Positions 1-26,499 of a DNA stretch of 26,499 nucleotides are shown in pieces (the stretch's first letter is position 1; every line of letters begins with the position of its first letter). The stretch spans positions 1 to 26,499 of the IMG/VR virus record IMGVR_UViG_3300032297_000006. One strand, written 5' to 3'. Source of the stretch: a virus. The notes beneath the pieces are model-generated. The model ran no database searches and was not told where the DNA came from. It worked only from the letters and a program-made list of their open reading frames with translations. Made by a program: the position numbers and the translations under genes.

Positions 1-3000
1 AAGCCATCTTCGCCATGGTGTTATAGATACCGTTCTGCATGGTGCGCGGCATACCGGCCAACGCACTAAACAGCACAGGATCTTCCACATCAAAGGCAAT
101 GTCCTTGCCGTCCACCTTATAGGTGATGGTGTTCTCTTTCCTCGTGCCGGTTGTATTCTTCTGCCCCAGCTTGGCAAACTCCATCGTTTCTGCGGCGGTC
201 TTCATGGCGAGGTTCTTCAACCCGGCCTTCATGATCGAGTCCGCATTCATGATGATGTTGTCGAACAGATTACCCAGCGGACGCTCACCGCCCTCAAGTT
301 CCCGATTGATGGCGCTCGCTACGTTGGTGAAGCTCTCACCGATCCTTGGGGTTACAGACCGACTCGGCTCGGTAGTGGTGTCTTTTTCCATGACGCGATA
401 GAATGGCGTATAGAAGACATCCCGCAAATTCTGAGCTTGCCTTTTGCTGATAAGTCCGGTGTCAACTGCCCAATCAATAAGGGCGTTGTTAAACTTATCC
501 ATTTCAACGGCGGTCTGTTTCCAGTTGGGATGCTTCGTCTCCGCATCCTTGATGGCATCGAGGACCGCAGCGTCAGTTACATCGAGGAAACCCTTGCGGC
601 CATTCTTACGAAGATCCCGCTCACGCAAAGCTGCCAGATAAACCTGAAGTTCATTCTTCGCTTCTTTGCTTTTAATCCCCGCCTCACGCATGATCGTGAG
701 AAGGGGCTTCACATCCGTCCGACGAGATATGATCCCTGTGGCAGCATCAATCCTACCCATGCCGTGACTTAGCATCTGAGCTATGCGCCCAGAGTTGGTC
801 AACGCCATCTCCATCGCCTTACCAGCGGAGCGTCCGGTGTATCCCTTACCAGCCGCCATCTGATCAGCATTATACAAGGCAGACGCACGATTCACCGAGG
901 TCCGGGCAATAGCCGAGAAAACACTCTCGCCCTTCTTCTTGTCGAATAGGGTTGTAAGAACACGGTCAAGCAGACCAATCTTATCAGCGTCAGCAATTAC
1001 AGACTGATAGAAGTTCTTTGCCGCAGCGTTTTGAGTTGCTGGCTTACGAGAGGCAAGGCGAGCTTCGGGGGCCTGCCGTGCGGAGAACTGGTAATCAGAC
1101 TTTTTGCCATAGGTGGGGTTCTTGGCGAGAACCAAAGGCCCAACCTGAATGACTTCATCGGCAGCAACCACAGGCTCTTTTGTGGTGCGATCATAGAAAT
1201 ACTGATGCCGCCGTGGGTCCATCCCAACCTGAACCCAATCGGGATTATTAATAGCCTCATCGGCACGCGCCTTGGCTTCCTTCGCCGTGGCGGGTTCCCA
1301 TTCGCCGCGCATCACAGCAATGGTAGCCTTGTCTGTTTCGCCAGCAGCAATCTTCATCGCCGCCTTTGGAACAACACCCATCTCAACATTGGTGGCAATA
1401 GCCGTTGGCTCATAGCCAATAGGAGTTCCTGCGTAGAACCCTTTACCTTTGGCGTCATGAACCGAGACAACCCAAGTGTTCTTCTTGGAGTATGCGGGAA
1501 TATCAAGCCTCAGCCCAACCATATCGCCGCGCTCAAGGGTCTCTGAAGGAACGCCGATCTTCTCAACCTTGCGCGGATCAGTCCCCTGCAAGGCATCCAC
1601 GATCTGCTGCTGTGTCGCAGGCTCAGGAACCTTTTCGTATGGTGTTACGGGCTTACGCTCATTCACAAGGTTCTCATACTGCTCACGAGATACGGTGCCA
1701 TCCCGCACCCCACGCGCAGCTTCTTCAAGAACCGGATCTCTGTCAGTTACCTTGCGGGCAGAGAACCTTTCTTCCGGCTTTGCCGCGAACAAAGATAGCT
1801 GATCCCCAGCCTTCATCTTGGTGCTGGGAGCTTTCTCGGTCAGCTTGCCGTCAATGTAGCTCTCAATGAAGTTAGCAACGGTCTGGTCTGGAATACCAGC
1901 ATCGCTAAGAGCATTGACTATCTTCCGGTAAGCCGCCGCGATCCTGGCAAAGAACTTATCAATCAGGGACTGCGGTCGCTCAGATGTCGTAGCCCACCGA
2001 GCTACCTGATCCGCAAACCACTCATCGAATGAACCCCAATAGCTATAGAAGTTAGCGAGTTCAGATGCTGGCCTGTCGCGCAGGGAAGATGCCGCCTCGT
2101 TGACGGTAACTTTACCCATAACCAAGGGGCGCATCAGCGACACATAATTCCTTACGGAGCCGCCTTTGTTTTTCTGATACCACTTCGCGTGAGCATTCAG
2201 AATGCCGTCAACAGTTTCCTTCGGCGCTGTATTGAGGGCAACCTCTTTGAACACATGGCCGACCTCATGGCCCATTGTTTCCATCTGCATAGATGGACGC
2301 AAACCGGACTTAATCTTGATCGCATAAAACTTATTCTGCTGAGACGGATACATCGTCCCATAGTTGCCCGTCTTGATGAACCCTTCCCTAGCGCGGGAGT
2401 AAGGGCCAAACAGATTATACTTGTTGATGAAGTCATTGGCTTTCGTCGTGTCCTTATCAGACACAAAGAAAACCTTAATGTCATTCATACCAAGTAACCG
2501 AACAAGACCTTCGCCAAACCCACTTAGGTTCTTTGGCATATTTTCGGTTGATGCAAACTTACTGGTGCCAACAAAAGGTCCGTTTGGATTCTTTTTGAAT
2601 GCCTCTTCGTCGCGCTTAATTTTGCTCTGCTTTTCTTTTCTCAGAAGATCAAGTTGATCCTTTGTGAAAAGATTGCTGTCCTTGCCGTCTATATCAAAGA
2701 CAGTCCTTCTGCCCTTGTCATAGTTGACACCAACATAGACAGGCTCGCCCCTTGCATTGACCGCTTCGATCAATGCCACATTGTTGTCAGCATAAACTAC
2801 AGGAGCGCCACCTAAATCCTTGGAGAACGCCTCGTAGTCATCCATGATTTCTTTAGGCACCGCCCGCGCTGAGAATGAAGCTGCCCCAGACTTAGGGGCT
2901 TGTTGCTCAAAGGACGCGGCACGTTCAGTTGCGCTAGTCAACAACGAAGCTGGGGTTCGGAAGCCATCACCACGGAAACCAGAGCGGAGGGCAGAGAAGA

Positions 3001-6000
3001 AGTCCTTGGTGAAGTTGAAGAATCGCTGGATGGGAGCGGTAAGGCCAACGATCTTCTGCCCACGATTAGAGGCATCAAGCAAAGCGCCAAACGCATAAGC
3101 CTGAGCTTCCTTGGCGCTAATCTTATTGTCCCCAACGCCACTCTTGAGGCTCTGCCAGTAAGTCACGTTAGACCCTGGCGGCTTCATGATCTGAAGACGG
3201 CGCTTAATAGACGGCTCTAGCTCGTCTATCGTCATGTCGTCTTTGAAGTGCTTGTCAATTTGCTTCGCAAAAGACTGATCATACGCAGCGAAGTAATCCT
3301 GTAGGACATGGAACGCTTCATGAGCGCCAGTTTCCCGCAGAATGGGCAGCATATCTTCAGCAAGAGAGATATTAACAAACCCAGGAAGGCTCTCTGTCGG
3401 AGGCTCAATAAGACCCTGCGCCCGATCACCGACCTTGGCCCCGCTTGCACGAGCGGCTTCAGCCTGCGCTTCGGTAATCACAATGTCCTCAAGGAAGCGG
3501 AACTGATAGTTGGCTCCCTTTGGCATCGTCTTGAGAAGCGCCTCATGGATCATGAACGCTTCATAGATTTGGTTTGCGTTGAACTTTTTGTTCTTCAGCG
3601 CAGCTTCAAGCGCATTCGCAAGAAGCCTGCCGGTCTTTCCTTTGGCGCGAAGATCATCCAAGAACTTCTTAACAATCGCCTGGGCCTTCTCTAGGTTCGG
3701 CGGCTCTTGTTCTTCCTTGGCTTCTGCCTGAGTTTCTGTGTCAGCTTTCTCGCCAACACTCCGGGCAGAGAACGCGATGCGGCGAGCTTCATCTTCACGC
3801 TCAATGTCTTCGAGGGTTCGAGGCTGCGCTTCGGCTTCAAAGCCAAGTGCGCGAGCTATGTCCTCGTCTGAATCTTGCAGAGACACGCCCGCAATAGACA
3901 TTTCGCGGTCAAGCTGACGGGCAGCTTCAGAAAGCTCCTGCCCCCGAATGTCTTCCGTTGGGCCGTAATTTACAGCGCGGCCAGACAACTCTTCGTTGAT
4001 TGCATCAAGAAGCTCCGCGTCCGTTGGGATGTCTATGAAGTATCCCTCGCCCGCCAAAAGCTCCGCCGCTTGGTCTAATTGCAGACCACCAGCCCAAGCT
4101 GGCTTCCCACCCTTGGTCGTTACAGTCCGTCTGGCCTTATTGATAAGGCCAGGGCGATTCCTCACATTGCCGCCAAGCGATTGAAGAACCTCGCCGCCCG
4201 TATCGCGCAAGCCGCCAGCCTTCACGATCCGCTGAACCAAGCTAACCTGACCTTTTGCTTGGGTTCTGCCCCTCCTCATCGAGGAAAGAAGCTCTTTGAT
4301 GTTCTGCGGCAAGGGTGCGGTTGCTGGCATCTCTGGCGCAGCGCCAACCTGTTCGCCCAAACGCCAATCCGGCCTGAACTCTTCTTGCGTCTCGGGGATT
4401 TGCGAAGTCCGGTCAGTAACCCTGCGCGGCGTGAGGGACTGACCCCTGGGATCTACACCAGCCCCACGCTTGCCAGCCACCTGTTCTGGGCCAACGCGCG
4501 CAGCGATTGATTCCTGCGTTGACCTTGCGGTTTCCCGCATCGGGAAACTGTAGATCTTATCCGGGTTTGTCTCTACCGGAACTTCCTGAACGACACCATT
4601 AACTTCACGATTAACGGTGGCAAAAACAGTCCCTTCAGGCGTTACCCCGGTGATCGCAATAATACCCTCGCCGCCAACCAACCGATTGTTCTTGTCGAAC
4701 TGCGGGTTCAGAACCATTCTCGGACGCCCGGCTTCTGGGGCGCCAGCGCGGAGATCGGTAACTGATGGGCCAGCCCGGCCAGCCCTTTGCTGCGCTACAT
4801 CGAATGCTTCTTGGGCAGAGAGATTGAGGTTTTCCCGCTGAGTAATACCCCTTTGAGACTCGGGGATTTCAGACCTTAGATCAGCGATATTGCGCTGCTC
4901 ATCGGCAATCTTCTGACGAAGATCAGCAAGCGAATCGCGTAAACCCTCGACCTCAACAGCATCAACCACACGCCTATTTTGCGCTGTCAAAAGCTCCCTG
5001 CGAGTGTCCGCAAAGTCTTCCTCAAACCTAGCTAGGCGCCTTTCAGCCGACCGTATTTCAGCAATAGGCCCAAGGGCTTCTTCATCTGGGCGAATGCCAG
5101 TTTGCCGCTGCAATTCAGCAAGGCGGAATGCTTCTTCCGTCTCGGGGCTGAAAGCAAGCTCGTTTCGGATCAAGGATTCCTGTTGTTGCTGGAAACCCTG
5201 CTGAACCCTCTCCTGTTCGTCTTGAAGCTTAACCTGAGCATACCGCAGTCGGGTATCAAAGTCTCCGCGAGCATCCTCGGTGCCACCGCCAACAAACCTT
5301 AGCTCAGGGAACCTCTCTTCAAGGCTGACAAGATAGTTCTCAGCCTGCGTACGGGTAAGCATCCCACCAGGGAAGTCCACGGTGGCGCGTTCCCGTGGCA
5401 GAGCCAAAGGAGCCTCGGGTTCAGCGGGGCGATTAGCGACAATATCCCCAATAGCCGAGCGAAGCTCTTCATTTTCACCGCGCTCTGGGGGAATTGGGCT
5501 GCGTCTGATATTGCCAGCCGCGCCCATGGCGCCGCCGCCCAGGATTTCAGCCGCTACTTCAACAGGGTCAATCTTCCCTTCAGTCGCAAGCTGGGCAGCA
5601 GCTTCACCAACACCACCGCCGCCTCCTTCAATAGCAGCAGCGCCGCCAACACGACCCACAGCACCGCGAGTAACAAGGCGACCAGCCCCATACCCAGCCA
5701 ACGCATCAACCGACGAAATAATGCTTGCACGAGTGAGGGCATCATCGCGCATCTTCTGCTTGAGTTCTGGGTTGTCATTAACTGCCCGAATAAGTTGGGC
5801 TAGTTCCTCTGGCTTGCCAGGATCAACACCCTGATCTTGCGCCGCCTTGAGGAGAGAGTCCCCCATGGACGTTGCAAATTCCGTGGGGAAGTTCAAAGCC
5901 CCGGCCAGCGCGCCAATAAGCTGACGAAGAACAGGAACCGGAGTTACGTTAGCAAGAATGCCAACAGGTGCAGCCAGGGGGTTTGCGCCAAAGCTTTCAC

Positions 6001-6469
6001 CAGCAATATCGCCAAGCGCGCTTGATGATTGAGCAAGACGACCAGCGGCACCAGCGACACTTTCTGTCTTTGCTGCCTCTTCAAATGCGCGTTGAGACGC
6101 TTCAGTCCGTGGGATTTCCTGAAGCCTTCTCAGACGCGCGGCAATATCCTTCGCGGCATCTTCTGGGCTTAGGCCATAGAACGAATCTGGGGATCTGGCT
6201 CGAAGCGCGCCAATCCCAAGCATGAGGTTTTGATACCCGCGCTCACCAACATCCAAAATGTTCCGCTCTAAAAAGGAGCGATTTAAGGATTCAGCCGTTG
6301 GTTGCGGCGCCCTTTGAGGCACATCAGGCCCCATAGGTTCGTCTGATACCTGTCTTGAATTACGGATCTGAGGGAGAATATCGCGCTCAATAGCTTGCGT
6401 GATCTGCTCACGCGACATCGAGTCGTCAAAGTTAATTAGACCAACGCCCTCGACATTAATTAAAGGCAT
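1..6469 (-). CDS. Giant polyvalent virion protein with two HExxH zincin-like domains (3' end outside window)
   Basis: The frame starts at ATG 6469 and stays open to the left edge (2156 codons, C-terminus missing); I translated it line by line and found no stop. By residue: N-terminus MPLINVEGVG; hydrophobic Gly-rich stretches about 155-200 and 250-300; coiled coil rich in Gln/Glu/Arg about 395-535; beta-rich segment about 583-643; HEAFH at 1050-1054 with E1121 in EAQAYAF; HEVGH at 1401-1405 with E1483 in FDEWFAD; a conserved domain with HQYFYDR and VGPLVLAK about 1640-1790; and an LPD38-like region (FYTPFYRV, YKVDGKDIAFDVEDP) about 1850-2156. FSAR occurs at 900, 1199, 1569 and 1795. Giant multidomain proteins of this kind are usually virion-borne and injected with the genome. 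The HExxH plus downstream Glu pattern indicates zinc metallopeptidase folds; activity and substrates are unknown. It is the last gene visible in the operon, 12 nt after the preceding stop. Confidence 0.93.
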   Translation of the reverse strand, partial: MPLINVEGVGLINFDDSMSREQITQAIERDILPQIRNSRQVSDEPMGPDVPQRAPQPTAESLNRSFLERNILDVGERGYQNLMLGIGALRARSPDSFYGLSPEDAAKDIAARLRRLQEIPRTEASQRAFEEAAKTESVAGAAGRLAQSSSALGDIAGESFGANPLAAPVGILANVTPVPVLRQLIGALAGALNFPTEFATSMGDSLLKAAQDQGVDPGKPEELAQLIRAVNDNPELKQKMRDDALTRASIISSVDALAGYGAGRLVTRGAVGRVGGAAAIEGGGGGVGEAAAQLATEGKIDPVEVAAEILGGGAMGAAGNIRRSPIPPERGENEELRSAIGDIVANRPAEPEAPLALPRERATVDFPGGMLTRTQAENYLVSLEERFPELRFVGGGTEDARGDFDTRLRYAQVKLQDEQERVQQGFQQQQESLIRNELAFSPETEEAFRLAELQRQTGIRPDEEALGPIAEIRSAERRLARFEEDFADTRRELLTAQNRRVVDAVEVEGLRDSLADLRQKIADEQRNIADLRSEIPESQRGITQRENLNLSAQEAFDVAQQRAGRAGPSVTDLRAGAPEAGRPRMVLNPQFDKNNRLVGGEGIIAITGVTPEGTVFATVNREVNGVVQEVPVETNPDKIYSFPMRETARSTQESIAARVGPEQVAGKRGAGVDPRGQSLTPRRVTDRTSQIPETQEEFRPDWRLGEQVGAAPEMPATAPLPQNIKELLSSMRRGRTQAKGQVSLVQRIVKAGGLRDTGGEVLQSLGGNVRNRPGLINKARRTVTTKGGKPAWAGGLQLDQAAELLAGEGYFIDIPTDAELLDAINEELSGRAVNYGPTEDIRGQELSEAARQLDREMSIAGVSLQDSDEDIARALGFEAEAQPRTLEDIEREDEARRIAFSARSVGEKADTETQAEAKEEQEPPNLEKAQAIVKKFLDDLRAKGKTGRLLANALEAALKNKKFNANQIYEAFMIHEALLKTMPKGANYQFRFLEDIVITEAQAEAARASGAKVGDRAQGLIEPPTESLPGFVNISLAEDMLPILRETGAHEAFHVLQDYFAAYDQSFAKQIDKHFKDDMTIDELEPSIKRRLQIMKPPGSNVTYWQSLKSGVGDNKISAKEAQAYAFGALLDASNRGQKIVGLTAPIQRFFNFTKDFFSALRSGFRGDGFRTPASLLTSATERAASFEQQAPKSGAASFSARAVPKEIMDDYEAFSKDLGGAPVVYADNNVALIEAVNARGEPVYVGVNYDKGRRTVFDIDGKDSNLFTKDQLDLLRKEKQSKIKRDEEAFKKNPNGPFVGTSKFASTENMPKNLSGFGEGLVRLLGMNDIKVFFVSDKDTTKANDFINKYNLFGPYSRAREGFIKTGNYGTMYPSQQNKFYAIKIKSGLRPSMQMETMGHEVGHVFKEVALNTAPKETVDGILNAHAKWYQKNKGGSVRNYVSLMRPLVMGKVTVNEAASSLRDRPASELANFYSYWGSFDEWFADQVARWATTSERPQSLIDKFFARIAAAYRKIVNALSDAGIPDQTVANFIESYIDGKLTEKAPSTKMKAGDQLSLFAAKPEERFSARKVTDRDPVLEEAARGVRDGTVSREQYENLVNERKPVTPYEKVPEPATQQQIVDALQGTDPRKVEKIGVPSETLERGDMVGLRLDIPAYSKKNTWVVSVHDAKGKGFYAGTPIGYEPTAIATNVEMGVVPKAAMKIAAGETDKATIAVMRGEWEPATAKEAKARADEAINNPDWVQVGMDPRRHQYFYDRTTKEPVVAADEVIQVGPLVLAKNPTYGKKSDYQFSARQAPEARLASRKPATQNAAAKNFYQSVIADADKIGLLDRVLTTLFDKKKGESVFSAIARTSVNRASALYNADQMAAGKGYTGRSAGKAMEMALTNSGRIAQMLSHGMGRIDAATGIISRRTDVKPLLTIMREAGIKSKEAKNELQVYLAALRERDLRKNGRKGFLDVTDAAVLDAIKDAETKHPNWKQTAVEMDKFNNALIDWAVDTGLISKRQAQNLRDVFYTPFYRVMEKDTTTEPSRSVTPRIGESFTNVASAINRELEGGERPLGNLFDNIIMNADSIMKAGLKNLAMKTAAETMEFAKLGQKNTTGTRKENTITYKVDGKDIAFDVEDPVLFSALAGMPRTMQNGIYNTMAKMA

Positions 6470-21213: not shown

Positions 21214-21495
21214 TCAGCCCATCGGGCCGCGAGCCATAGTACCCTTTGTGGCCGCGCCTGTCCCGCGAATTTTCGTGGGCTTGTAGGGGGCAACACCCTC
21301 ATCCACAATGGCTTGATCCGGGGCCTTGGCGTTCTTGACCACCTTGCCAACCGCGCCAGTATTGGAACCCTGGTCAGCCGAAACCGACTTGAATGGGTTG
21401 CCAGTGCTGGGGCCTTTGGCCCGGCCACTCTGGTTCATGGCACGAGCGATATTCCGCCCGTACTTCTTCATGTTTTCGCTTGTCACTCCAGCCAT
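21214..21495 (-). CDS. Small basic phage protein, unknown (93 aa)
   Basis: ATG 21495 has AAGGA upstream. Sequence: ENMKKYGRNIARAMNQSGRA, KGPSTGNPFKSVSADQGS, VVKNAKAPDQAIVDEGVAPY and a Gly/Thr-rich basic end GTGAATKGTMARGPMG. I do not recognise a named domain. The MKKYGRN[IL]ARA and KIRGTGAATKG patterns recur in short proteins from environmental phages. Its tail recalls, in a looser form, the GKTKGR tails of genes at 23-24.5 kb. It lies between adaptor genes and is probably a minor structural or assembly protein; function unknown. Confidence 0.8.
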   Translation of the reverse strand: MAGVTSENMKKYGRNIARAMNQSGRAKGPSTGNPFKSVSADQGSNTGAVGKVVKNAKAPDQAIVDEGVAPYKPTKIRGTGAATKGTMARGPMG

Positions 21496-21832: not shown

Positions 21833-22507
21833 TCACGGGTAAGAAGACCAAGGCACAAACCTAGCTGGTTCACGCCCACGGTCTTCATCTGAGGCAAGCT
21901 TCCACTGCTCCTCATAATCAGCCTTGAGGATCTGCAACCTCCCTGTGGCTTCTGGTCGCTTCAGGGCAATCTGATACGCCAACGCAGCCGACAGTGCCGG
22001 AACAAACCGGACGGGCATATCCATAACATCGGTGGCAGATGTGGCATCCTGAATGCGCCTCATCGTCCAGTATAGGATGGTGTAAGGAAGATCCGGCACA
22101 GGCCAGAGGGTGTACTCAGGATCAACCTGACGGTTCACATAAATCTGAAGGGGACGACCCGTGGTGTTCTTGTTTGGCAGGGTGGCATAATCCCCCACGC
22201 CAATACGAGACACCGTGTAATCAAGAGCAGATCCGCTGGTATTAACCCGGATCATGGTCTCGATAATATCAATGGTATCAGCAGGCAATGAATACGTCTT
22301 AACCCCAGGTGTTAGAACCAGGGTGTTCTCCTGAACGGTCCAGAGGTTGAGGCCCCTATTGGACCACTCAGCGGAGATCATGTTCAGGGACCGACGAGCC
22401 GTGCGGAAATCATAACCCGTCCGGGCTTCAAGGCCCGCGCGTTCATACGCCTCCTCAATGAGGTCAGCGATGTCGAGATTCCAGACTGCGGTGCCAGAGG
22501 TTGTCAT
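21833..22507 (-). CDS. Head-tail connector, P22 gp4-like (224 aa)
   Basis: I chose ATG 22507 because it forms a TAATG junction with the upstream stop; a longer frame to 22540 overlaps that gene. The N-terminus (WNLDIADLIEEAYERAGLEA, TARRSLNMISAEWSNRGLNL) matches the helical start of P22 gp4-type tail accessory factors, which bind the portal and complete the head. The centre (LVLTPGVKTYSLPADTIDII, NRQVDPEYTLWPVPDLPYTI) is the usual beta region and the end (FVPALSAALAYQIALKRPEA, LKADYEEQWKLASDEDR) is a helical bundle. In P22 gp4 also has muramidase activity; I see no reason to claim that here. Confidence 0.86.
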   Translation of the reverse strand: MTTSGTAVWNLDIADLIEEAYERAGLEARTGYDFRTARRSLNMISAEWSNRGLNLWTVQENTLVLTPGVKTYSLPADTIDIIETMIRVNTSGSALDYTVSRIGVGDYATLPNKNTTGRPLQIYVNRQVDPEYTLWPVPDLPYTILYWTMRRIQDATSATDVMDMPVRFVPALSAALAYQIALKRPEATGRLQILKADYEEQWKLASDEDRGREPARFVPWSSYP

Positions 22508-22734
22508 TACTTCTTCTTCCCGCTGGGAGTTATGGGCCAACTCTTACGGGCTGGTCCAGTTTTCTTTTGAGCCATGGTCGCCTTCTGGCTCGATGACATC
22601 TTGGCAGCAGCGGCAGCAGGACGACAAGCGGGATACCCCCGCTTCGACTTCTCAGAACCGCTACGCCCACAAGGCTTCCCGGTCTTTACATCAACCCACT
22701 TCTCATCAAACCACTTGCCGAGACCGCCCTTCAT
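22507..22734 (-). CDS. Small basic Cys-containing protein, DUF5872-like (75 aa)
   Basis: The N-terminus KGGLGKWFDEKWVDVKTGKP then CGRSGSEKSKRGYPACRP has conserved Trp, Cys, and Gly-Arg positions. The tail is Ala/Ser/Lys-rich (KMSSSQKATMAQKKTGPARK). I recognise the CGR...YPACRP arrangement from short proteins of environmental phages and, I believe, of large algal viruses, catalogued around DUF5872; the name is uncertain. Function unknown. Two Cys and many Lys/Arg might mean nucleic-acid binding, but that is speculation. Overlaps the upstream gene by ATGA and the next start by TAATG, so it is tightly coupled. Confidence 0.8.
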   Translation of the reverse strand: MKGGLGKWFDEKWVDVKTGKPCGRSGSEKSKRGYPACRPAAAAAKMSSSQKATMAQKKTGPARKSWPITPSGKKK

Positions 22735-23039
22735 TTCTTTGTGACCCTGTTGTCAGGTCCACGCCAAGTGCCACCCTTCTTCTTGTACTCCTTTGATGCC
22801 CAGGCATTCGCATAGGCAGAGGGGTACACATCGAACTTGGCCTTGGCGGCACTCTTTGCCGCAGCCCATAGCTTTGGGTTCTGCGGCTTTACCCGCCCGC
22901 CCTCTCTCATGCGGGAGGCTTCAGAGAGCGCAATCGCCACAGCTTGCTTCCGGTTTGTCACCTTCTGCCCGCTGGATGATTTAAGGTCGCCTTCCTTAAA
23001 CTCCCGCAGAACCTTCCGAATTTTCTCCGGCTTCTTCAA
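22731..23039 (-). CDS. DUF6496-like protein with C-terminal conserved module (102 aa)
   Basis: Two modules are visible. Residues 5-43 (KIRKVLREFKEGDLKSSSGQ, VTNRKQAVAIALSEASR) match what I know as DUF6496. Residues ~54-95 (NPKLWAAAKSAAKAKFDVYP, SAYANAWASKEYKKKGGTWR) match a separate small conserved module shared with proteins in phages and, as I recall, large DNA viruses of algae. Both are helical and strongly basic. No function is established; a chromatin- or DNA-binding role is sometimes suggested for such basic helices, but nothing here shows it. ATGA overlaps on both sides place it in the coupled small-gene block. Confidence 0.83.
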   Translation of the reverse strand: MKKPEKIRKVLREFKEGDLKSSSGQKVTNRKQAVAIALSEASRMREGGRVKPQNPKLWAAAKSAAKAKFDVYPSAYANAWASKEYKKKGGTWRGPDNRVTKK

Positions 23040-23386
23040 ATCATCCGGCCCTTGGTCTTGCCACGAGAGGCAATCCCGTCACCACGGGTGCAGCCGCCGC
23101 CAGCCATCTTTACAGCGCCACCCTTAGCCATACGCCGGGGAGGCATAGGCGGGGGAATGGGTGGAAGGGGCATAGGCTCACGGGATGGCCGCATCATACC
23201 GCGAGGAGGCGTAATGTCCTCTTCATAGGATGGGATCTCAACTGGCGCACGGCGGCGCGCAGCAGGCTCCTCGCCACCCGGCAGGGTGCGGGGGCGGAAG
23301 TTACGCATCCCAGGAGGGGGCGTCATGTCTTCTTCATAGCTTGGGGCAGAACGAGTGCGACCACCATCGGCGTATTTCTTTTTCAT
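23036..23386 (-). CDS. Pro-rich basic protein with RGKTKGR tail (116 aa)
   Basis: I chose ATG 23386, which forms an ATGA with the upstream stop; a longer frame to 23422 intrudes on that gene. The N-terminus is MKKKYADGGRTRSAPSYEED. The block PSYEED[MI]TPP-x-GM occurs twice (about residues 16 and 53). A Pro-rich stretch (PMPLPPIPPPMPPRR) follows. The C-terminus (MAKGGAVKMAGGGCTRGDGI, RGKTKGRMI) is nearly the same as that of the adjacent 289-aa protein. No known domain fits. The disordered middle and basic tail suggest a linker protein or a small virion component; the shared tail suggests a common destination. Confidence 0.82.
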   Translation of the reverse strand: MKKKYADGGRTRSAPSYEEDMTPPPGMRNFRPRTLPGGEEPAARRRAPVEIPSYEEDITPPRGMMRPSREPMPLPPIPPPMPPRRMAKGGAVKMAGGGCTRGDGIASRGKTKGRMI

Positions 23387-24252
23387 ACCATTCGACCTTT
23401 CGTTTTGCCACGAGCGGCACATCCATCACCACGGCGAGAAGCAGAAGGAGCCTTAACGGCACCGCCTTTAGCCATCTTTTTGACCTTACCGCCCTTCTTA
23501 AACCCAAGCGACTTGCCAAGCTGGCGAAGGTCTTCACGGAAATCACCCGTGCTTGGGCGACCTTCCCCGGTCTCATTGGTGCGGCGCAGGCCAAGGCGCT
23601 CCAAGAAAGAACGCTCGGCAGGAGGTTGAATATCCCCGCCTTTCATTATGTCACCCAACTGATTGCCAAGGGCAATCCGATCAAGCTCACGCTGATTGAG
23701 TGCATCCGCTGGAGATGGAGTTGCGGTCATGCGGGTATTAGGACGATTACGCTGCCGTTGCTGCTCCATCCTTGTCCGAGACATGGCTTCCTGAATTTCA
23801 GCCTGCGAAACAGGCGGAAGATTGCCCGGCATATCTGCATTCTGCATATCCTCCGCGCGCATGATGCCCTCACGCGCACGTTGAATATCAGCCTGAGATA
23901 CGGGAGGAATGTTCCCCGGCATATCTGCCTCTTGCATGGCATTATACCGCATGAGGTCATCTCGCGCTCGACGAACAGATGCCGCGCTCGGGCTAGATGG
24001 AATGTTGCTCGGAACATCCGCCATTTGCATATCAGACATGACAGCGCCACGCTGAACAGCAGGAGGAACGCGAGTAGAAGTGCGAGCAGCAGCGGCTCTT
24101 CGAGCGCGAAGTTCTTCTACTGGAATGTTAAGGCGATAAGCTTCTTGCAGATCTGCCCTTTCATTCGTTGGCAAGGTACCTTCATCGCGCATCCGGCGAT
24201 ATTCGCGGACATCTAGCCCACGACGATATGCCTCACGAACATCATCTGCCAT
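23383..24252 (-). CDS. Repeat-containing disordered protein with RGKTKGR tail (289 aa)
   Basis: The N-terminal 50 residues hold two similar helical units starting EAYRRGLDVREYRRM and EAYRLNIPVEELRAR. Residues 75-165 hold three imperfect repeats of 30-31 residues (MQEADMPGNIPPVSQADIQR is typical; units start at 75, 106 and 136). The C-terminal third is charged, with FKKGGKVKKMAKGGAVK, RRGDGCAARGKTKGRMV. No enzyme or membrane motif is visible. The protein looks like a disordered scaffold with short interaction motifs plus a basic tag. It shares one base with the upstream stop (TAATG) and overlaps the downstream gene by ATGA. Role unknown; structural or DNA-associated functions are possible. Confidence 0.83.
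   Translation of the reverse strand: MADDVREAYRRGLDVREYRRMRDEGTLPTNERADLQEAYRLNIPVEELRARRAAAARTSTRVPPAVQRGAVMSDMQMADVPSNIPSSPSAASVRRARDDLMRYNAMQEADMPGNIPPVSQADIQRAREGIMRAEDMQNADMPGNLPPVSQAEIQEAMSRTRMEQQRQRNRPNTRMTATPSPADALNQRELDRIALGNQLGDIMKGGDIQPPAERSFLERLGLRRTNETGEGRPSTGDFREDLRQLGKSLGFKKGGKVKKMAKGGAVKAPSASRRGDGCAARGKTKGRMV
23758..24030 (-). repeat. Three degenerate ~90-bp coding repeats
   Basis: The repeats encode MQ-x-AD-[MV]-P-[GS]-N-[IL]-P-P-VSQA-[DE]-IQ units at residues 75, 106 and 136 of the 289-aa protein. The second and third copies are closest (ADMPGN, PPVSQA identical); the first is diverged, with a Ser-Ala insertion giving a 31-residue step. This points to a coding expansion with later drift. 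Confidence 0.75.
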
Positions 24253-24539
24253 TAGATGAACTTCCCTTTGGTCTTTCCTTTGGTCTCAACGCCGCCACCG
24301 CGAGCCATCTTAACCTTACCGCCCTTCTTCATGCCTTCGGACTTCTCTTCCATCTTCTCGGCACGAGCAATTTCTTTGCGGATAAGCTTCTTGTCCATGG
24401 CAGCATCAGCATGGGCCATGCCGCCCTTCTTCATGCCGCCCGGACGCATGGCGCGAGAGCCAAACTTAGGCATATCCATGCCACCCATATCGGGCGCCAT
24501 CTTTGGCATCTTGGGCTTCTTCATCTTCATACCGTTCAT
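24252..24539 (-). CDS. Small Met/Lys/Gly-rich protein with KGKTKGK tail (95 aa)
   Basis: Fifteen of 95 residues are Met, and Lys and Gly dominate the remainder: MNGMKMKKPKMPKMAPDMGG, then MKKGGMAHADAAMDKKLIRK and a helix EIARAEKMEEKSE. The C-terminus MKKGGKVKMARGGGVETKGK ends GKTKGKFI, the third and most divergent version of the tail on the next two proteins. No recognised domain. The extreme Met/Lys bias may reflect a nucleic-acid-binding or membrane-surface role, but nothing specific can be claimed. It overlaps the endolysin gene by ATGA and shares one base with the 289-aa gene. Confidence 0.82.
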   Translation of the reverse strand: MNGMKMKKPKMPKMAPDMGGMDMPKFGSRAMRPGGMKKGGMAHADAAMDKKLIRKEIARAEKMEEKSEGMKKGGKVKMARGGGVETKGKTKGKFI

Positions 24540-25057
24540 GATTGATCTCCTGTCATTTCAAAGGCTTTGGATTCACATTCATCAGTGCGACGAAGCCAGC
24601 CACGCCCAAATGTCTCAAAGGCTTTCAGTCCTTTATAGAACAAACGGCGCTGTTCAGAGAAGCGAATTATCATCTGCTTCACTGGTACTTGCGTAACCAG
24701 AGCCATGGTTTTCGGGCCAATAGCTCCGTCTTCTACTGCCCCAACGCAACGCTGAAGGATCTTGGCCGCGCGACCCACGCCACCATTCACGGCAAGGTCA
24801 AACACCACCAGATCAAGCCCGGCACCCAGGTCATCGCACCTAGCCTTATCCCAATACCGGGTCTTGTAGAGGTCCATAAGATGCTTGTCTGGAATGTTCC
24901 GCAGTTCATCCTTGCTGGCATCCCGGCCAAGGTATTCCCTATAAACCGCCAGGGTCACGCCTTTCATAGTGGCGCCGCCCGGATCTCGCGGATCATCGGA
25001 CCACAACCCCTCGTGGTGTAGGACAAACTCAAGACATGGCTCAAAGTTGCTTTTCAT
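24536..25057 (-). CDS. Endolysin, GH108 muramidase with C-terminal PG-binding domain (173 aa)
   Basis: The N-terminal signature FVLHHEGLWSDDPRDPGGAT then MKGVTLAVYR is that of glycoside hydrolase family 108 N-acetylmuramidases, in which the Glu of the HEG segment (E16 here) is the catalytic acid. RYWDKARCDDLGAGLDLVVF-DLAVNGG is the second conserved block. DGAIGPKTMALV, near residue 113, followed by IIRFSEQRRLFYKGL, is the C-terminal peptidoglycan-binding domain of this family. Length matches the family. No signal peptide is present, so release depends on a holin; the three-TM holin overlaps its start by ATGA. Cleaves beta-1,4 MurNAc-GlcNAc bonds at the end of infection. Confidence 0.95.
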   Translation of the reverse strand: MKSNFEPCLEFVLHHEGLWSDDPRDPGGATMKGVTLAVYREYLGRDASKDELRNIPDKHLMDLYKTRYWDKARCDDLGAGLDLVVFDLAVNGGVGRAAKILQRCVGAVEDGAIGPKTMALVTQVPVKQMIIRFSEQRRLFYKGLKAFETFGRGWLRRTDECESKAFEMTGDQS

Positions 25058-25572
25058 TTCCGCACCATCCGGTTCATAGCCTCGGTCTTTTCTTTAGACC
25101 CAGCGGAAGAACCAAAGTAATAAGCCACAACCCCACCCCAAGCCGTACCCAAAGCGCCAAGCATAACCAGAAGCGCCTCTGAGCTTCCGGTATTTGGCAA
25201 GCCAAAACGAAGCATCCAGAACAGAACTCCAAAGTACCCAACGGTAATCAGACCAGCCAAAACTCTAGGCGTCCAATCCCTTAAAGATACTTCCCGGCTT
25301 CGTGCGCTGTCGCGGTCCTCATTTGAGATACGCTCAAGGTCAATGTCCAACTCGCGCATCTTCACGGCAAACTCTTGTTCAGCCTTCTTTAGAGCCAACA
25401 ACTGCTCCGGGGTGGCAGAAGCAACAGCATTCTCAAGCTCCTGCTCAGTCCCATCCGGCTTGCCAAGCAAAGCTTCCGAAATGGCACGAGTAGCCATACC
25501 CGCAAGAGGACCACCAACAGCACTCGCAATGGATGGAGCAACAGTACGGACAAGATTTAGAATTGCTTCCAC
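25054..25572 (-). CDS. Holin, three-TM family (172 aa), GTG start
   Basis: The start is GTG 25572, supported by GGAGAG at 25578-25583 with 5-nt spacing and the absence of an earlier in-frame start after the previous stop. The N-terminal segment (LNLVRTVAPSIASAVGGPLA) is hydrophobic, a coiled-coil linker rich in Glu/Arg follows, then two clear TM helices (VLAGLITVGYFGVLFWMLRF and LVMLGALGTAWGGVVAYYF) and the conserved ending FGSSAGSKEKTEAMN, typical of the Holin_3TMs family. It would form the inner-membrane lesion that lets the GH108 enzyme reach the wall. ATGA overlap with the endolysin fits a lysis pair. Confidence 0.9.
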   Translation of the reverse strand: MEAILNLVRTVAPSIASAVGGPLAGMATRAISEALLGKPDGTEQELENAVASATPEQLLALKKAEQEFAVKMRELDIDLERISNEDRDSARSREVSLRDWTPRVLAGLITVGYFGVLFWMLRFGLPNTGSSEALLVMLGALGTAWGGVVAYYFGSSAGSKEKTEAMNRMVRK

Positions 25573-25573
25573 A

Positions 25574-26038
25574 CTATCTCTCCAACATGAATGTCAGATT
25601 TTGGTGCCGAGGATACGTTACCGTGCGTTCACCTTCTGGACATTTATACTTGATGGTCGCCAACAAAGTTGCCTTTCCGGGAGCGGTGGATTCTTTGTCT
25701 GAAATGTCCAGAAGATAAGTGAAGGTATCAATGTCAGGGCCAGCAGGCCCTGTGAAACGCGTCATGCTTGGTGTCGCCTGATGAATAACACCAGCCCCAT
25801 CACGCACTGTCACCTCAAAATTCTCAACCGAACAGTCATCCCGCTTCTTGATCCGAGCTACTGTTACGGTAACAGGATGACCAATCTTAGCTGGCTCAAT
25901 CCTGAAATGCTCAGGAGACCAAACCAAGATCTCATTCTTGAACCACCCAAACTTCTCACCCGCGCTATAGCCTCCAACTGCCAACGCAAAAGCTGCGGTA
26001 GCAAGCTGAATTACCGGGGTGATTTTGGGCAGTTCCAT
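25574..26038 (-). CDS. Anchored beta-rich protein in the lysis region (154 aa)
   Basis: Residues ~8-26 form a hydrophobic segment (VIQLATAAFALAVGGYSA) consistent with a membrane anchor or uncleaved signal. The rest is beta-rich (HPVTVTVARIKKRDDCSVEN, FEVTVRDGAGVIH, FTYLLDISDK, ATLLATIKYKCPEGERTVTY), suggesting an Ig-like or FN3-like sandwich. The two Cys (DDC and KYKC) could pair in the periplasm. I do not recognise a family. The position between a small membrane protein and the holin suggests a lysis-associated or envelope-modifying role (lysis control or superinfection exclusion); it lacks the coiled coil and lipobox expected of spanins. Confidence 0.82.
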   Translation of the reverse strand: MELPKITPVIQLATAAFALAVGGYSAGEKFGWFKNEILVWSPEHFRIEPAKIGHPVTVTVARIKKRDDCSVENFEVTVRDGAGVIHQATPSMTRFTGPAGPDIDTFTYLLDISDKESTAPGKATLLATIKYKCPEGERTVTYPRHQNLTFMLER

Positions 26039-26056
26039 GAGCTTTGCCCAGCCAAC

Positions 26057-26254
26057 TCAGTCTGGGCTAATCTTGGGAAATGTCTTCTTTCCCAGAAGCT
26101 TCTGAACCGTATCGGTCTCATAGATGCGTATAACAGTCCAAACAATCGTGAAGATCGCAGCAATGCTAGGTAGAATGCCAGCCAATGTAGCCACCACAGT
26201 CCCTATTGAAAGGGCGTCCACCACATTCTTTGCCGCTTCATGAGTGTCAGTCAT
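26057..26254 (-). CDS. Small membrane protein, possible holin (65 aa)
   Basis: I chose ATG 26254 (MTDTHEAAKNVVDALSIGTV), 1 nt after the preceding stop; an upstream in-frame alternative would run into that gene. One hydrophobic stretch of about 30 residues (IGTVVATLAGILPSIAAIFT, then IVWTVIRIYE) may make one long or two short TM helices. The C-terminus is charged (TVQKLLGKKTF). A short N-terminus, TM core and WTVIRIYE end resemble small holin/antiholin-like proteins of podoviruses. A second holin or antiholin beside the three-TM one is plausible; it could also be an unrelated membrane protein. Confidence 0.78.
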   Translation of the reverse strand: MTDTHEAAKNVVDALSIGTVVATLAGILPSIAAIFTIVWTVIRIYETDTVQKLLGKKTFPKISPD

Positions 26255-26255
26255 G

Positions 26256-26499
26256 TCAGCACTTCCATGCTCGCAGAGATTTATTAATCCTGCTGTTTGG
26301 ATCATTGGCGGTCTTAGCTGAGGTAAGCTTCTTCTTCATGCCCTTCATCCTGGCACAGAAGCTATCCCGCCGAGATCCGCCCTCTGGTTGCGGTGGCTTC
26401 AACCCAGGCTTCCCTGGATTGGCCCGGTTATAAGAAGTCCTGCCTTTGGCATTCAAGCCGCCAGCAGGGTTCTTGCCCTCTTTCCTCTGCCATGCAGGG
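26256..26499 (-). CDS. DUF6321-like conserved protein (5' end outside window)
   Basis: The frame is open to the right edge (WQRKEGKNPAGGLNAKGRTS) and ends RINKSLRAWKC at 26256. The blocks GLNAKGR-x-SYN, NPGKPGLKPPQPEGGSRRDS, FCARMKGMKKKLTSAKTAND and PNSRINKSLR are near-invariant in the family I know as DUF6321, found in many phages and in some large DNA viruses, always small and basic. No function is established. Single frame translation of the edge shows at least 80 codons in total; a TTG inside (position 26456) should not be taken as the start because the family extends further upstream. Confidence 0.85.
   Translation of the reverse strand, partial: PAWQRKEGKNPAGGLNAKGRTSYNRANPGKPGLKPPQPEGGSRRDSFCARMKGMKKKLTSAKTANDPNSRINKSLRAWKC

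Follow-up and report, generated by a model that had tools for sequence, protein, structure and literature searches.

A shared C-terminal tag on unlike, exchangeable proteins in the head/neck gene block of a podovirus clade

Why should three adjacent genes of a virus encode unlike proteins that close on the same short basic peptide? The window, by which we mean the whole stretch of DNA analysed, comprises the 26,499 bases of one IMG/VR virus record, and the three genes lie on its (-) strand. By ORF calls and in coding order, slot 1 (24252-24539) encodes a 95-aa protein with the tail ARGGGVETKGKTKGKFI, slot 2 (23383-24252) a 289-aa protein with the tail RRGDGCAARGKTKGRMV, and slot 3 (23036-23386) a 116-aa protein with the tail TRGDGIASRGKTKGRMI, the stop of each gene overlapping the next start. 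For slot 3, the ATG at 23386 gives 116 aa and an upstream ATG at 23422 gives 128 aa. The tag spans 17 residues in each protein, at 24255-24305 (-) in slot 1 (from sequence and codon bias), 23386-23436 (-) in slot 2 (from sequence and model) and 23039-23089 (-) in slot 3 (from sequence), and KKGG or AKGG motifs precede all three tails. Its variants in the window are summarised by [RK]xDG[CI]AxRGKT[KR]G[RK][MIF][VI], about 17 residues. Within the slot 1 tag, AAAGGGAAG is Shine-Dalgarno-like and precedes the TAATG start of slot 2. An initial annotation made from the letters alone had described three adjacent proteins with a common C-terminal tag, and its ORFs, tails and motifs are confirmed; it had also called the upstream parts unrelated, and the three bodies do indeed not form one BLAST cluster. 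The three proteins had no match in Pfam, PHROG or NCBIfam. AlphaFold predicted short helices of modest confidence for the 289-aa protein, with residues 253-289 unstructured (pLDDT about 40, only 6 sequences), a model too weak to base a fold search on. Residues about 75-160 of this protein (23383-24252 (-)) carry diverged internal repeats of about 35-40 residues (MQ.ADMPGNIPPVSQADIQRAR...), a part that differs among relatives.

The tag is widespread. A degenerate-codon pattern for RGKTKGRM plus one residue and a stop occurs in at least 120 IMG/VR stretches, and a second codon pattern, for ADGIAQRGKTRG, likewise in at least 120. When the order of these codons was scrambled as a control, IMG/VR yielded 0 matches; by our own estimate, ~0.02 matches to the tag pattern would be expected there by chance. 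Chance or low-complexity similarity is ruled out by the scrambled-pattern control. In 84,980 bacterial and archaeal genomes, the pattern search picked up six stretches. The initial annotation had mentioned similar tails in other aquatic phages, which holds for many uncultured phages; among 50,697 GenBank phages, tblastn of the tail gave only three matches, all weak (E about 1), to Pag-Yong1, MinM2 and Pra-JY27. The tag is clear at the C-terminus of the Pag-Yong1 protein UMO75986.1, whose end is given as RDGCAKRGRTKGRFI / YASGGMIGRDGCAKRGRTKGRFI and whose gene sits between the minor capsid and portal-adaptor genes. The records OQ594354.1 (Synechococcus phage MinM2), OL906435.1 and PP438419.1 (Planktothrix phages Pag-Yong1 and Pra-JY27), each of 65,014 bases and with different named cyanobacterial hosts, look like one phage. 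A literature search found no paper with RGKTKGR or RGTGAATKG. The fetched loci hold 213 distinct tagged proteins, and 99 ORFs other than the search bait carry the tag; ORFs were called mechanically and only identical proteins were removed, so the loci are not fully independent.

The tagged genes have a fixed place. There is strong support that the tag is confined to the head/neck gene block of one podovirus clade, where the tagged genes are flanked by the genes for the major capsid protein and a P22-gp4-like adaptor. Of 122 loci, 121 carry one or more markers of this clade. Upstream of the tagged ORFs comes the capsid gene, in 98 of 98 cases and at a median of 3.0 kb; downstream, 98.3% of 234 have the adaptor gene, at a median of 1.5 kb, and the strand never changes in between. 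Where covered, the order in ten long contigs is terminase, portal, GroES, scaffold-like, capsid, DUF6321, tagged genes, gp4-like adaptor, zinc-ribbon gene and RGTG gene. In the window, the adaptor (21833-22540 (-)) serves as the fixed downstream marker of the array; it was assigned from structural/tail PHROG matches, homology to genes annotated as adaptors in Pag-Yong1 and CRP-901, and synteny, and a comparison with solved structures gave no useful match. Between it and slot 3 lie two untagged genes, one for a DUF5872-type protein recognised by a domain match (22507-22734 (-)), which forms the downstream border of the array, and one for a DUF6496/DUF5872-type protein (22731-23039 (-); PF20106, 1.4e-9). 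The upstream neighbour in the window's subclade is a GH108 endolysin (24536-25057 (-); PF05838, 1.1e-25). A DUF6321-type protein cut by the window end (26256-26498 (-)) is untagged here and tagged in loci L008 and L041. Between its gene and the array, the window (24536-26305 (-)) places the endolysin, a holin-like gene and two more small genes; in other contigs the lysis genes follow the tail genes. Because lysis genes share the block in the window, late operon position alone is no proof of particle localisation. Among the relatives of a 693-aa protein are DSL-LC04 proteins annotated as stabilization proteins (P22 gp10-type) and counterparts in Pag-Yong1, HTVC023P and CRP-901; against solved structures it gave only weak nozzle-protein matches. 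At the other end of the window, 2-6469 (-) encodes over 2156 aa of a large multidomain-type protein that is truncated at the window edge; its relatives in clade contigs measure 2300-2960 aa.

The array itself is variable. The initial annotation had pointed to differing numbers of tagged genes as worth checking, and in a sample drawn by the adaptor rather than by the tag, 36 of 42 loci carry 1-4 tagged genes and 6 of 42 carry none. Since some clade relatives carry none, the tagged genes are not essential. We compared relatives whose adaptors are about 91-100% identical. Slot 1 orthologues with the same tail occur in L092 and L375-L379. In L376, both flanks are kept (94% and 97% DNA identity) around an unrelated slot-3 body with the tail kept, and homology to the window returns 90 nt before the stop, which is the tail region. 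The slot-2 N-terminus differs in L377, and slot 2 relatives in general have different N-terminal bodies and the same tail. L379 holds an additional cassette after slot 3, with tail DNA at both its ends, and further additional cassettes are found in L415 and L384. A single tagged gene just before the adaptor gene is present in L442 and L433 and absent from L427, L429 and L430. Near-identical relatives have bodies swapped, inserted or lost and tags kept, the breakpoints falling mostly at the tags, and each slot retains its own tail type. Free variation of tails among close relatives, which the initial annotation would have counted against a common signal, is the opposite of what we see: tails are kept and bodies change.

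Tag, array, synteny and the exchange of bodies with retention of the tag are observations. We consider that they may, with about an even chance, reflect a docking tag at the C-terminus by which exchangeable accessory proteins are recruited to the head or neck of the virion. Unlike proteins with one terminal peptide, in one head/neck locus and encoded by dispensable, exchangeable genes, are what one would expect of cargo that bears a loading signal. The tail would be read by one conserved particle component, a putative receptor common to all tagged proteins and itself part of the virion, whose docking site would most likely lie inside the head or at the portal/adaptor. The cargo would be a variable collection of small basic proteins, most of them disordered, which would be carried in the virion as accessories and would probably enter the host together with the DNA, where the bodies may act. 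Each gene would be a cassette of variable body and constant tail, and the tail DNA would provide both the ribosome-binding site of the next gene and the homology for cassette exchange, insertion and loss. Loading of the tagged proteins into virions, taken as a step of its own, could prove right about as readily as wrong. The full proposal we put forward more tentatively, as somewhat short of an even chance: an undescribed, widespread C-terminal address system of uncultured podoviruses, in which a particle component would read the tag and load an open-ended, recombining library of host-directed proteins, the tag DNA acting as address, ribosome-binding site and exchange site at once. The initial annotation had suggested sorting, packaging or DNA association; a shared protein-level tag on unrelated bodies has strong support, and each of these functions would be an interpretation of it.

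DNA association deserves to be weighed first. The tagged proteins could be basic in the manner of protamines and coat or condense the DNA of the phage or of its host, with the tail as a nucleic-acid-binding peptide and not an address read by a protein. The bodies suit such a role. We find 98.5% of them to be basic, compared with 45% of 85 untagged small proteins from the same phages, and 86% are predicted on the disordered side of a Uversky plot, compared with 27% of these controls; the tails carry about +5 net charge, and the DUF6496, DUF5872 and DUF6321 neighbours are also small and basic. The anatomy of the tag argues the other way. Four positions, G(-4), G(1), T(3) and G(5), never vary in the 213 distinct tagged ORFs, D(-5), R/K(0), K(2) and C/I(-3) hardly do, and the last two residues are mostly hydrophobic with the stop directly after; the RGKTKG stretch was partly fixed by the search, D, G(-4) and C/I lie outside the bait, and the 99 non-bait ORFs show the same conserved columns. 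Simple charge requires neither the fixed two-residue hydrophobic end nor the conservation of D, C/I, A, T and G, which is as strict as that of R and K. Since the uncharged G, T and A and an Asp are kept no less strictly than the basic positions, charge by itself is unlikely to be the signal. We regard DNA association as unlikely, though it could hold together with a docking tag. Upstream of the tag there is a [YM]-K-x-GG stretch, often with SSAS too. Two tandem tails at one C-terminus (GGGIEVRGKTKGTMVKMARGGGIEVRGKTRGKII) occur in L063 (2955-3410 (-)) and L098 (2277-2762 (+)), which indicates that the unit can duplicate by itself.

A second alternative, which we hold to be quite improbable, makes the tail the active peptide, for example one that binds a host target, with the bodies as minor carriers and several genes giving dosage. 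The free exchange of bodies would fit, as would the stronger conservation of tails (81% median identity in homologous pairs, against 62% for bodies). The bodies do not behave as mere carriers: they are under purifying selection (pN/pS about 0.39, weaker than the 0.23 of tails), they recur as types across distant contigs, and they include the known domains DUF6496 (in a tagged protein at L077:4036-4275) and DUF6321. Tabulating the tag-bearing bodies, as the initial annotation had proposed, covered the 213 distinct tagged proteins; BLAST clustering of 205 bodies gave about 118 clusters, an approximate count, as single linkage can chain short repeats and short bodies may be missed. Alignment of the largest cluster showed unlike bodies chained in this way, and it was left unfolded. 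A few body families have both tagged and untagged forms, namely DUF6321 (74% identity, L008 and L035) and a 57-aa protein (89% identity, L076 and L051). One body type, with PHROG matches, is presumably DUF3008-like. This type is also the N-terminus of CBB_322, of which 30 peptides were found by mass spectrometry in phage CBB virions (PMC5259590); this counts in favour of a docking tag, although the link concerns the body domain and not the tag.

Could the tail instead be kept for its DNA, which would supply an anchor for recombination and a ribosome-binding site when cassettes are shuffled, with passive amino acids? Its last codons do double as the Shine-Dalgarno site of the next gene, as far as codon usage tells. 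Codons 4-6 are biased to AAA-GGA-AGG, with GGA/GGG and AGG/CGG preferred there, in contrast to GGT/GGC at G(1) and CGT/CGC at R(0). A start codon lies near all 213 tails, within 12 nt in 207 of 213, mostly as TAATG, TAANNATG or ATGA; nearby open-frame starts are partly expected by chance, and such sharp positions are not. The codon bias together with these starts indicates that the tail also holds the next gene's Shine-Dalgarno site, and the breakpoints at tails likewise favour a role of the DNA. A ribosome site, however, accounts for KGR at most and not for RADGCAQRGKT. Apart from codons 4-6, synonymous sites approach saturation, yet the residues are conserved (tail pN/pS 0.26-0.36; on different bodies, tails show pS about 0.7 and pN about 0.2), which places the conservation at the protein level. 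A pure DNA element as sole cause is disfavoured by the restriction of the bias to codons 4-6 together with pN/pS, and we judge this alternative very improbable overall. Tails within a genome are 67% similar, compared with 61% for random partners (0 of 200 draws reached the former value), which counts in favour of a docking tag. Recent gene conversion of tails is ruled out, since synonymous sites are near saturation even within genomes.

Hardly credible is a degradation tag that sets late-protein lifetime via a host protease: the tail resembles the C-terminal ClpX motif of MuA, in which basic residues are followed by two hydrophobic ones, but its conservation spans about 15-17 residues, far longer than a degron, the genes are limited to one head/neck locus, and some tags are not terminal, one recurring gene type having an internal tag version followed by ...KMxGGKC.

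A docking tag has precedents in known systems. In T4, small internal proteins reach the head by means of a targeting peptide of about 10 residues at the N-terminus; T4 relatives carry other basic proteins with similar sequences, and some of this cargo acts on the host (PMC9026906). Like the proteins described here, the T4 internal proteins (IPI, IPII, IPIII, Alt) are small and basic with divergent bodies and one short terminal peptide, the set varies by phage, and the genes are not essential (PMC9026906). The T4 peptide is N-terminal, about 10 residues long and cut off by the protease gp21 (PMC9026906), whereas the present tag is C-terminal, about 17 residues long, unrelated in sequence, has no known cleavage and belongs to P22-like podoviruses; in 29 of 30 cases its core, in the looser form defined below, belongs to the last 35 residues. 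Encapsulins recognise short C-terminal peptides on cargo, and there, as here, a short conserved peptide ends different proteins encoded near the shell-protein gene (PMC8346489). Encapsulins are cellular compartments with enzyme cargo and TVGSL-like motifs (PMC8346489), in contrast to a phage tag that has another consensus, lacks a GSL-type ending and would be read by a putative receptor. Because position or consensus differs, we do not class the tagged proteins as T4 or encapsulin members. The P22 scaffold binds coat via a positively charged C-terminal segment and directs fused cargo into particles (PMC9962691), which resembles the tag in charge, position and related phage type; that segment is a helix-turn-helix of a single protein (PMC9962691), whereas the tag sits on several proteins and is modelled as unstructured, at the low confidence given above. 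We rejected the tag as a copy of the same phages' scaffold C-terminus, as the scaffold-like proteins end KKIxLTxxQxxxAKRLGVPLExYAK... and show no resemblance. Should the tag prove to be a loading signal, sequence alone would identify the cargo proteins of a widespread group of uncultured phages, hundreds of unannotated small genes would gain a common role and a reason for their variability, and a short genetic tag would become available for putting foreign proteins into phage particles. The T4 scheme, in which a single terminal peptide serves many exchangeable cargos, would then have a second, independent example. Three uses of one set of codons would be a compact example of cassette shuffling without operon breakage.

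A looser core, R[AGI]xG[ACIV][ACE]x[RK]G with R or K as first residue, extends the picture. We counted 30 occurrences in ten contigs with 812 predicted genes and 164,359 residues, RGTGAATKG proteins being included among the C-terminal cases. In the window, a 93-aa protein (21214-21495 (-)) ends in KIRGTGAATKGTMARGPMG, a second C-terminal signature that shares the core RGxGxAx[RK]G. The cultured SAR11 phage HTVC023P, a Pelagibacter phage, has two unrelated proteins of the same module that end in RGGGAAVRGMGFKGVF and RGVGAAIRGHKFIGVK, which we read as a lineage-specific version of the tag in an isolate. A 75-aa protein of DSL-LC04 starts with MAGRGMGCATRGG. We read the core, RGTG, HTVC023P and DSL-LC04 forms as probable variants of one address, which may share a common origin. 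In both HTVC023P proteins, gp32 and gp51 (L170 5656-6393 and L133 7481-7864), the C-terminus comes 16 residues after the point at which RGxGAA[VI]RGxxFxGV begins. In many loci, such as L003, L004, L006 and L007, KIRGTGAATKG[VT]MARGPM[AG] ends one gene per genome, which has a variable N-terminus and lies beside the adaptor gene.
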